Source: an uncultured Faecalicoccus sp.
Lineage (GTDB): Bacteria; Bacillota_I; Bacilli_A; Erysipelotrichales; Erysipelotrichaceae
Reading direction: 5' to 3'
Length of the DNA: 35,400 nt
NCBI RefSeq assembly: GCF_944327125.1
Contig: NZ_CALVGO010000011.1
Coordinates: 1 to 35,400 of the forward strand
Shown here: one piece after another, positions 7,959 to 34,574 of the stretch
Numbering within the stretch: the first letter of the stretch is position 1
Layout: each line of letters opens with the position of its first letter
Position numbers and translations under genes: made by a program
The notes under the pieces: model-generated
What the model was told of the DNA's origin: nothing
Seen by the model: the letters and a program-made list of their open reading frames with translations, nothing else
Databases searched by the model: none

Positions 7959-8240
7959 TAAAAAGTCCTCATCTCCAAGGACTTTTCCTTGAGAGACGAG
8001 GACTATGTTTCTATAGTTTACCCGCGGTACCACTCTCTTTGCCTGTATGGCCACTCATTGCGATCGGCAGCAGCGAATCGCTTTCTCTTGATAACGGTGA
8101 GGAATCCGTCTTTACTTACTGAATTCAGTAAAGAAGCTCCAGGGTGAGTATGTAAAAACGCTTTTTACAGTCTTCCACCAAAGGACTGCTCTCTATAAAA
8201 AAGGATGAATTTACAGCTCCCTGTCCATGCTTTTGAATTT
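7959..8240 (-). ncRNA. T-box riboswitch leader, leucine-specific (CUC specifier)
   Basis: A tRNA-sensing attenuator in the leuA leader. The T-box sequence AGAGTGGTACCGCGGG lies at 8021-8036 on the minus strand. It is followed by a long terminator hairpin (7960-8004; AGTCCTCGTCTC pairs with GAGATGAGGACT) and five U residues. Stem I begins at AGAGAGCAGTCC, has the GGTGGAA element, and its 3' side reads CTCACCCTGGAGC. In other T-boxes the specifier codon lies directly before that conserved segment, so the specifier is CUC (Leu), matching the downstream genes. Uncharged tRNA-Leu should stabilise the antiterminator and raise leuACDB expression. Confidence 0.92.
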
Positions 8241-31596: not shown

Positions 31597-31689
31597 AAAA
31601 GAGTCCTCAACTTTTCTTTTTTTCTGTATATAATATACCACAGAACATTGAAATCACATAATTCAACGAATAAAATTTATCGCATAGAA

Positions 31690-31720
31690 ACAAGAAAAGC
31701 AGGAATCTCAAGATCCCTGC
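31690..31720 (-). terminator. Terminator of the candidate RNA
   Basis: On the minus strand GCAGGGATCT pairs with AGATTCCTGC with one mismatch, followed by TTTTCTTGTTT. On the plus strand there is no U run, so it works only for minus-strand transcription, about 450 bases past the LytTR gene. Confidence 0.75.
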
Positions 31721-32113
31721 TTTATGAAACTATTTTGTTGTATGATCCATCTATCTTGACGAATTTCTGTATAACGTATTTTCTACAGCATTGCCTAACT
31801 ACGATCTATATTCAGGTGTCTGTGCTCTTTTTATACAGAATTAGATGACATCTTAACATTTACCAAGACGTTTTCCCTTGTGAAATTCATCACTGATAGT
31901 CAACTTCTCTACCTAACTACGTCCATGTATCTGTTAAGTCCAAGGAATGTTTTTTTCGGATTGCTCCGACCTGACGTTTGGAGGCTTCTCTCCATAGCTT
32001 CGTGCTTCGCCAGGAAAAACAAGATCCTGGCAACTATTGTATTGTCATCTTCCCACCGCTCTCTTTTTTCTATCCTGGGAAACTATTTGCGTCCTCTTTG
32101 TTTCCCTTTGTTC
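31697..32113 (-). ncRNA. Candidate structured non-coding RNA of about 417 nt
   Basis: This fills the gene-free stretch 31642-32168. A minus-strand promoter (see 32120-32147) and a terminator delimit it. The predicted RNA has several clean stems: GGGAAAC/GTTTCCC at the 5' end; GCCAGGA/TCCTGGC; CGGA-GCAA-TCCG with a GNRA tetraloop; and a long stem in which AATTCTGTATAA pairs with TTATACAGAAATT, enclosing about 60 bases. No reading frame of useful length with a ribosome site exists on the minus strand; the longest short frame (MKVNKGKQRGRK) starts at the -10 box. I recognise no known RNA family. Reading it as a long 3' leader of the LytTR mRNA is the main alternative. Confidence 0.45.
31794..31921. 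repeat. Pair of direct repeats CCTAACTACG
   Basis: An identical ten-base sequence at 31794-31803 and 31912-31921 inside the candidate RNA, 118 bases apart, in similar flanking context (both followed by a pyrimidine-rich AT segment). On the minus strand it reads CGTAGTTAGG, which faintly resembles LytTR-type sites. Confidence 0.5.
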
Positions 32114-32119
32114 ACTTTC

Positions 32120-32147
32120 ATTATAGCCAAAGAAACTTCAAAGACAA
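32120..32147 (-). promoter_or_regulatory. Promoter of the candidate RNA
   Basis: TATAAT (32120-32125), a perfect -10, with TTGTCT (32142-32147, four of six matches) 16 bp upstream on the minus strand. It lies 22 bases past the end of the LytTR gene. Confidence 0.6.
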
Positions 32148-32168
32148 CAAGGCTGTCCAAAACGGCAT

Positions 32169-32849
32169 TTATTCTGTCTCTTTTGGTTTTTTCTTCTGAA
32201 AGATCCTTTTTTTCTGGGATCTGGACAAAGGAACTCTTTCTCCCGTGGAAAGTTCAACTTCGTCCTTATACCAGGCTACGATATGGATCGCATTGACAAG
32301 AAAGGAAACATGAACCCGTAAAAATCCATAACTTTCCAAGGTCTCAGAGAGTTTGGACATGCTGGCGCGTTCATGAAACTCCCCTTTTTTTGTATGGAAG
32401 TACAGCATTTTTTCCATTTTATCCACATAGTAGATATCCTGATACGGCAAGCGCATATGAACCCCGTCATAATTCAATTCATAAAATTCCTGCTGATGAC
32501 ATAAAGAAGTAATAATATCTTTTTGATTCAATATTTCTTCTTTAATGTTGGATTTATTGATATATAAGATACGATTTCGCTGATCGTTGCCTTTTTTCAT
32601 AAGGGCGTTGTCACACAGGTAGACAAAAAGCGCATTCGGATTGTCATGAACAAAAACACTTTCCAGACGAGGCGTTTTAAAAACTTCGTCAAAGAGAAAC
32701 AGCCGATATTCTTCCTTTTTCATCTTTCGGGCCAGATCCGAAGCTTTTGTGAACAAGCGAAACGTCCAGTCCACATCCTCTAATACCTTTGCCAAAGTAA
32801 ATACGGCTTCCATGGCTTCTTTTTCATACTCCAGTATCGCAACTTTCAT
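32169..32849 (-). CDS. LytTR-domain transcriptional regulator with receiver-like N-terminus
   Basis: A 226-residue regulator. The C-terminal ~100 residues (about 120-216) form a LytTR DNA-binding domain: YYVDKMEKMLYFHTKKGEF, LSETLESYGFLRVHVSFLVN and VELSTGERVPLSRSQKKRI. The N-terminal ~110 residues resemble a CheY receiver in size, with a possible Asp54 (LFLFDEVF) and Lys99, but the acidic pocket reads ILEYE instead of the usual adjacent acids, so phosphorylation is doubtful. No kinase is nearby. The start follows the murA terminator by about 13 bases with no clear Shine-Dalgarno site; the promoter is probably inside or beside that terminator. Confidence 0.85.
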   Translation of the reverse strand: MKVAILEYEKEAMEAVFTLAKVLEDVDWTFRLFTKASDLARKMKKEEYRLFLFDEVFKTPRLESVFVHDNPNALFVYLCDNALMKKGNDQRNRILYINKSNIKEEILNQKDIITSLCHQQEFYELNYDGVHMRLPYQDIYYVDKMEKMLYFHTKKGEFHERASMSKLSETLESYGFLRVHVSFLVNAIHIVAWYKDEVELSTGERVPLSRSQKKRIFQKKKPKETE

Positions 32850-34302: not shown

Positions 34303-34376
34303 TGGAGCAGGTGATGAGAATCGAACTCACGTAGTCAGCTTGGAAGGCTGAAGTTCTACCATTGAACTACACCTGC
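34303..34376 (-). tRNA. tRNA-Gly (anticodon TCC)
   Basis: A 74-base cloverleaf including an encoded CCA end. Acceptor GCAGGTG pairs with CACCTGC; the D arm AGTTCAATGGTAGAAC, the anticodon loop CTTCCAA (TCC at 34342-34344) and the T arm GAGTTCGATTCTC are all present. Last tRNA of a three-gene operon. Confidence 0.97.
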
Positions 34377-34384
34377 AAAATAAA

Positions 34385-34460
34385 TGGCGGTCCAGATGGG
34401 ACTCGAACCCACGATCTCCTCCGTGACAGGGAGGCATGTTAACCACTACACCACTGGACC
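34385..34460 (-). tRNA. tRNA-Asp (anticodon GTC)
   Basis: A 76-base cloverleaf with encoded CCA. Acceptor GGTCCAG pairs with CTGGACC; the anticodon loop reads CTGTCAC and the T arm GTGGGTTCGAGTCCCAT. It is the middle tRNA of the operon, 8 bases upstream of tRNA-Gly. Confidence 0.97.
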
Positions 34461-34483
34461 AAATTCTATATCTTTTAATAAAA

Positions 34484-34574
34484 TGGCGGAGAAGGAGAGA
34501 TTTGAACTCTCGCGCCAGTTTCCCGACCTATACCCTTAGCAGGGGCACCTCTTCAACCACTTGAGTACTTCTCC
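34484..34574 (-). tRNA. tRNA-Ser (anticodon GCT)
   Basis: A 91-base class II tRNA with a long variable arm (GGTATAGGTCGGGAAACTGGCG region) and encoded CCA. Acceptor GGAGAAG pairs with CTTCTCC; the anticodon loop CTGCTAA reads AGC/AGU codons. First tRNA of the operon. Confidence 0.97.

Follow-up and report, generated by a model that had tools for sequence, protein, structure and literature searches.

A conserved structured RNA with a minute reading frame beside a LytTR regulator gene in gut Erysipelotrichaceae

We analysed a 35,400-nucleotide stretch of DNA from an uncultured Faecalicoccus sp. (hereafter the window) and found on its minus strand a gene for a structured RNA of about 424 nt (31690..32113). 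Judged by sequence comparison, it is a previously uncatalogued structured RNA, and at least 26 gut bacteria from a single family carry it next to the same regulator gene. Its near-invariant start module is followed by a frame of only 3-6 codons, which is unusual, and ribosome loading as a regulatory act would thereby become directly testable.

An earlier note on this DNA had pointed to a candidate structured RNA of about 417 nt in this region, preceded by a perfect TATAAT with a fair -35 element and followed by a terminator on the minus strand only. Our results agree closely with this description. The promoter, TTGTCT-16-TATAAT (32120..32147, minus strand), is conserved in all homologues; TATAAT is located at 32125..32120 and the -35 element TTGTCT at 32147..32142, with 16-bp spacing and 10 of 12 matches. 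At 31696..31723 (minus strand) lies the stem of an intrinsic terminator, with a T-rich tail behind it, and the terminator-like site on the plus strand, at 32152, is weak. The 5′ end of the RNA (~32113) was deduced from the promoter and the 3′ end (~31690) from the terminator, giving the length of 424 nt. The predicted fold (-120 kcal/mol) is more stable than those of dinucleotide shuffles (-90 ± 5 kcal/mol; z = -6.0), and none of 100 shuffles reached as low a value. Taking into account the stability of the fold, the conserved promoter, the terminator, and the homologues and covariation described below, the minus strand from 32113 to 31690 is almost certainly a real and independent RNA gene. 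Ahead of the HAD gene downstream, a TTGAATTATGTGAT-like stretch was observed at 31640-31690 (minus strand). It recurs in loci with and without the RNA (L004, L007, L131, L133) and is perhaps the promoter of the HAD-cdaA genes.

As for known RNA families, a search against Rfam 15, one of the checks proposed in the earlier note, gave no match for the RNA at the gathering score. With a relaxed E-value, the best match was L20_leader, at 23.6 bits against a cut-off of 58.7, and it covered the terminator end together with a loosely aligned piece ahead of it. RNase P RNA, tmRNA, SRP RNA and 6S RNA, which the note had set aside, likewise gave no family-model match at this stretch. The genome carries RNase P RNA and tmRNA elsewhere (292 and 77 bits, contigs C8 and C39), and a sub-threshold 6S-like match is present on contig C2. 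RNase P, tmRNA and chance structure are already refuted as identities. Within the window, a T-box leader at 7989-8236 (minus strand) exceeds its own gathering score, and three consecutive tRNA genes are present at 34306-34574 (minus strand). Concerning protein genes, none of the frames stays open across the core in every one of the 16 homologues. A 138-aa frame on the plus strand (31880-32296) was rejected, as it runs antisense to the A-rich RNA, where stops are rare. The literature searched gave no description of the RNA; an unnamed prior listing among the thousands of microbiome candidates is possible (PMC8040213).

A DNA search found the RNA stretch in 8 of 60 genomes, the window's own included. 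A covariance model built from eight sequences matched 15 of 315 genomes of the order, so that conservation in relatives, on which the candidate had been expected to stand or fall, was observed; among 395 genomes drawn from the class, matches were obtained only in the window's own and one Merdibacter. A pattern search checked with the model placed the RNA in Faecalicoccus pleomorphus and Faecalicoccus acidiformans, Faecalitalea cylindroides, Holdemanella biformis and Holdemanella porci, Catenisphaera, Absicoccus porci, Merdibacter and several uncultured Erysipelotrichaceae. Among its 43 matches in contigs of named genomes, only those from Erysipelotrichaceae scored strongly with the model and the rest look like chance; none of the 7 matches in viral contigs was upheld. 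Two loci of one genome (L002 and L009, contigs C45 and C34 of G001) both stop within the RNA gene and overlap by 77 identical bases, which is an assembly break and not two copies.

The stems named in the earlier note were all recovered in the predicted fold, including the one closing about 60 bases. On the minus strand from the 5′ end, these begin with a terminal hairpin, GGGAAAC/GTTTCCC (32077..32106; 32106..32100 with 32083..32077), comparable hairpins being visible by eye in most homologues. Hairpin P1, GCCAGGA/TCCTGGC (32009..32031; 32031..32025 with 32015..32009), has 8 of 8 pairs changed on both sides. Hairpin P2, TGGAG-AGAAGN-CTCCA (31979..31994), is nearly invariant, with 100% of cells paired and one pair showing a double change. 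In the GCAA-capped hairpin P3, TCGGA-GCAA-TCCGA (31956..31969; 31969..31965 with 31960..31956), 5 of 5 pairs have changed on both sides and 97% of cells are paired. P4 (GGACG/CGTCT, 31866..31924), which encloses P5 (GTGA/TCAC, 31893..31880), is predicted from the fold and was seen by eye in homologues. The 3′ domain is predicted to be closed by the stem TTCTGTATAA/TTATACAGAA (31765..31840; 31840..31831 with 31774..31765), which encloses the roughly 60 bases mentioned above. Finally, TGTCATC (31844..31850) is the proposed long-range partner of GATGACA (32049..32043), which overlaps the start codon of the frame described below. The UCAUC of this start-codon helix recurs by eye in most type-a homologues, that is, in RNAs of the kind found in the window; the helix has no compensatory support.

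Covariation, a further check proposed for the candidate, was examined in 16 homologues from Faecalicoccus, Faecalitalea, Holdemanella, Catenisphaera, Absicoccus, Merdibacter and other genera, and strong compensatory changes were found. When the 16 were aligned to the covariance model, 92.4% of cells paired. Both sides had changed in 73 cells, against 23 ± 4 in shuffles, and the covariation score was 0.550, against 0.202 ± 0.020 in shuffles and at most 0.14 when the partners were slid; these values come from an alignment fitted to the model, which leans towards it, and from shuffles that ignore relatedness. The signal is carried by P1 and P3, and helix 1 of the model had no compensatory support in these homologues. 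An alignment artefact is unlikely in view of the control with slid partners and of the wide variety of pair types.

The gene upstream of the RNA (32169..32849, minus strand) encodes an atypical regulator with a receiver-like domain and a LytTR DNA-binding domain (Pfam LytTR, 57 bits). In its predicted structure (30 orthologues, pLDDT 91), a five-strand beta-alpha domain precedes the LytTR domain, and the PDB entries ranked highest by Foldseek were ComE in full length (E 1.5e-12) and LytTR domains, among them promoter-bound AgrA. The phosphoacceptor Asp of the receiver (position 54) is not conserved, being D in 19 of 30 orthologues and N, H or Q in the others (alignment A3), and ordinary phosphorylation therefore seems doubtful for the set of orthologues taken together. 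Orthologues with E below 1e-20 were found in 43 of 314 genomes of the order. By our own count, RNAs with the start module occur in 26 of the 43. A further three (G226, G087 and G015) show the promoter and, behind an altered ribosome-binding site, a short frame; in the remaining 14 no RNA was recognised. The LytTR matches in L124 (G228) and L131 (G004) each contain an in-frame stop, TAG and TGA, respectively, perhaps marking the gene end or a broken copy.

The RNA lies directly 3′ of the LytTR gene, often in the order murA-LytTR-RNA-HAD-cdaA, and in other genera it remains near the LytTR gene even with a whole gene in between. The gene downstream of it varies, and can be rubredoxin-like (L003, L006), gamma-glutamyltransferase-like (L005) or, in Merdibacter, a convergent asparaginase-like gene, where all neighbour names except LytTR and HAD were read by eye from translations. 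In Holdemanella (L005), a terminator-like hairpin is found between the LytTR gene and the RNA promoter.

LytTR operators consist of 9-bp repeats separated by 11-13 bp, and their distance to the -35 element is usually 10 bp (PMC6193735). The promoter in the window reads ACCAAAAGA-12-GCCGTTTTG-10-TTGTCT-16-TATAAT, with repeat 1, ACCAAAAGA (32179..32187, minus strand), within the 3′ end of the LytTR gene and repeat 2, GCCGTTTTG (32158..32166, minus strand), 10 bp before the -35 element. This layout equals that tabulated for LytTR operators, for example ACCACTTAC-12-ACCACTTAT-10-TTTACA-17-TATAAT from Clostridium botulinum (PMC6193735, Table 3). When 20 promoters were anchored on TATAAT, two similar boxes about 21 bp apart were found at a fixed distance to the -10 element. 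With 11 more promoters added to these 20, self-similarity at lag 21 was 0.556, against a mean of 0.268 (sd 0.068, max 0.424) at other lags of the 31. As 9-mers, the repeats of other promoters are nearer to ACCGATTTT, and in several genomes repeat 1 is displaced by one base. With a matrix trained without Faecalicoccus, the promoter of the RNA ranked first in the window, scoring 25.6 against 7.6 for the next site. A matrix from all promoters detected strong sites in L162 (34.5) and L168 (36.9), which are LytTR neighbourhoods without a recognised RNA. The fit to the operator matrix was bad in Absicoccus (1.2) and moderate in M258 (18.2) and F. pleomorphus (18.9). It is thus likely, as far as promoter sequences can tell, that LytTR controls the RNA. 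Activation would be likelier than repression, since the repeats, -35 and -10 elements are arranged as in published LytTR-activated promoters. The earlier note had suspected an undescribed RNA perhaps linked to the LytTR gene upstream, and both the operator in the RNA promoter and the persistence of the RNA near LytTR speak for such a link. The orphan LytTR regulator beside murA and cdaA would thereby acquire its first predicted target.

The near-invariant start module AGAGCGGTGGGAAGATGACA (32043..32062, minus strand) comprises a ribosome-binding site and a start codon. It opens the mini-ORF ATG ACA ATA CAA TAG (MTIQ*; 32034..32048, minus strand). The view of the earlier note that the region holds no convincing frame stands for long conserved frames, but not for this conserved 4-codon frame at 32048..32034. 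In all 16 type-a RNAs, AUG is followed by a stop after 3-5 codons (MTIQ, MTIV, MTIT, MKIK, MTRDL, MTIS, MTIH, MKRY, MTI). Eleven RNAs with a second body, described below, have frames of six codons (MGTIAG, MGTIER, MGTIIR, MGTDDR, MGSLIR, MGTFDR, MGSFRG, MGCLLR, MGQLAR and, twice, MGTSER). The frame is closed within six codons in 27 of these 27 copies, against a mean of 7.5 and a maximum of 17 in base shuffles and 9 and 6 in the other two frames; with one copy per genus, 16 of 16 are closed against a null maximum of 12, in tests that, like those on base pairs, do not model phylogeny. All three stop codons are used, and several codon differences are silent. Weaker matches to the start module with an ATG in these genomes mostly precede longer frames, as expected for a ribosome-binding site, and in another family the module occurs twice in exact form, both times at the start of an ordinary gene. 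Three loci with LytTR-type repeats and a changed ribosome-binding site, L162 (G087), L168 (G015) and L125 (G226), continue with MGT*, MAQSDDY* (GTG start) and MVPP*, respectively, frames that were read by eye after the fact and are supporting only. These sequence data suggest that ribosomes likely engage the mini-ORF. A frame beginning with AUGGAGAGAAG was dropped, as it varies in length and its third codon can be either Ser or Arg. The element GGTGGGAAGATGAC presumably resembles a stretch of 16S rRNA, which may be chance.

In Merdibacter, a type-a copy is followed about 1.4 kb downstream by another RNA (L055:2156-2265, plus strand; L067:2564-2634, plus strand; L032:1012-1124, minus strand) with the same promoter boxes and start module and a different conserved body. 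This second RNA, whose frame has 12 codons (MTIESRCVKN[HN]R), sits behind an oppositely oriented gene. A search with it revealed the same start module near LytTR in other genera. As a result, 11 of the 27 copies proved to combine this module with an RNA body of another kind, located close to the LytTR orthologue (L158, L159, L160, L161, L164, L165, L166, L167, L169, L170 and L171), with the conserved elements ACGGT, GCCTGAAG and GGTACAGCA following in this order. Only the promoter and the start module are common to type-a and second-body RNAs. In these other genera the second body is conserved in sequence, and RNAalifold on its MAFFT alignment gave only 8 pairs. The mini-ORF, the operator and this wider set of RNAs with a common start module had been missed by the earlier note.

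From an RNA gene, a promoter, operator-like repeats and a closed tiny frame, all read from the DNA, we infer activation by LytTR, ribosome loading and action in trans. We hold with moderate confidence that the RNA is a LytTR-driven, trans-acting regulatory RNA of the FasX, RNAIII and VR-RNA kind, which would also engage ribosomes via its mini-ORF. The neighbouring LytTR protein would bind the direct repeats upstream of the -35 element and switch transcription on, and the RNA would fold into its conserved branched body and end at the intrinsic terminator. A ribosome would probably load on the 3-6 codon frame near the 5′ end, and might protect the RNA or, in competition with the start-codon helix, make it refold. 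The RNA may then act on other transcripts, as FasX, RNAIII and VR-RNA do. Such action in trans on mRNAs, for which we argue by analogy, has in our estimate slightly less than an even chance; it is favoured by the varying downstream neighbours and by one clear family of known precedents. Alternatively, loading of ribosomes on the 3-6 codon frame may be the function itself, with a body that provides stability and no mRNA targets. Through a strong ribosome-binding site, an abundant RNA might occupy ribosomes, bring about peptidyl-tRNA drop-off, or report the translation state through a fold switch. The start module is indeed the sole RNA element common to both bodies, with a frame closed in every copy, and effects on transcripts and on cells are described for minigenes that have a strong ribosome-binding site (PMC8708949). 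However, conservation of the type-a body, in both sequence and pairing, extends far past the start and exceeds the needs of a stabiliser, and we regard this explanation as unlikely. A related idea, which we find somewhat doubtful, concerns the RNAs as a class: their only universal element would be a ribosome-loading minigene of 3-6 codons placed on interchangeable bodies, and ribosome engagement, not antisense pairing, would be the core function. Were this true, these RNAs would serve to titrate ribosomes or peptidyl-tRNA, or to switch with the state of translation. As the bodies are unshared among LytTR-adjacent RNAs, antisense action would fit less well than ribosome engagement.

If the RNA were a cis-acting leader or attenuator of HAD-cdaA, the genes downstream, the common strand would be accounted for, as would the terminator that precedes HAD both in the window and in several relatives. 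This reading is very unlikely, since the gene downstream is rubredoxin-like, gamma-glutamyltransferase-like or a convergent asparaginase-like gene in other loci, and since a promoter-like stretch recurs past the terminator, ahead of HAD, in loci with and without the RNA. The position directly downstream of LytTR on the same strand could also suggest a 3′ UTR processed from the LytTR messenger, which the conserved promoter with its operator, the terminator-like hairpin ahead of the RNA in Holdemanella, the whole gene intervening in other genera and the second Merdibacter RNA behind an oppositely oriented gene make highly improbable. Size and structure would suit a housekeeping RNA, but RNase P and tmRNA score above cut-off elsewhere in the genome, the weak 6S-like match also lies elsewhere and Rfam offers no match; a disguised small protein gene or chance structure is opposed by the lack of a frame open across homologues and by covariation far above shuffles and slides. 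To this last group of identities we give next to no credence.

In a few pathogens, a LytTR regulator is known to have an effector RNA of its own. Among these systems, fasX adjoins fasA and its RNA is about 200 nt long, the AgrA-driven promoter of RNAIII has direct repeats and the hld frame of RNAIII encodes a 26-aa peptide, and VirR is of the LytTR type. In Streptococcus pyogenes, the LytTR-family (AgrA-like) regulator FasA promotes transcription of the small regulatory RNA FasX (PMC3673130), which pairs with target mRNAs (PMC4691137). The pair described here likewise joins a LytTR-family regulator to a putative regulatory RNA; unlike FasX, the new RNA is longer and carries a mini-ORF, no sequence relation is indicated (no Rfam match), and no kinase genes were noticed in the examined part of the window. 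AgrA of Staphylococcus aureus drives the long structured RNAIII (PMC3673130, PMC4691137), and the RNAIII/hld locus shares with ours the LytTR regulator, a long structured RNA, a direct-repeat promoter and a small frame within the RNA, whereas the frame of the new RNA has 3-6 codons, no agrBDC genes lie beside it and there is no Rfam match. VirR of Clostridium perfringens activates transcription of the 386-nt VR-RNA (PMC4691137), which is similar in size to the new RNA, but has no sequence relation that we found and another gene neighbourhood. The operator layout is that of the HdrR and BrsR LytTR regulatory systems (PMC6193735); in those systems the repeats drive the operon of the regulator itself, which includes a membrane partner, whereas in the new locus it is an RNA that would be driven, and no partner gene was seen. 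As for the mini-ORF, a hexapeptide minigene with a strong ribosome-binding site is known in which ribosome binding stabilises the transcript (PMC8708949). Minigenes resemble the new RNA in having a very short frame after a ribosome-binding site; the known ones lie in mRNAs before a gene, whereas the new transcript has no further conserved frame. Judged against these systems, the locus looks like a new regulator-RNA pair, and would bring a conserved example of LytTR with an RNA into commensal gut Erysipelotrichaceae.
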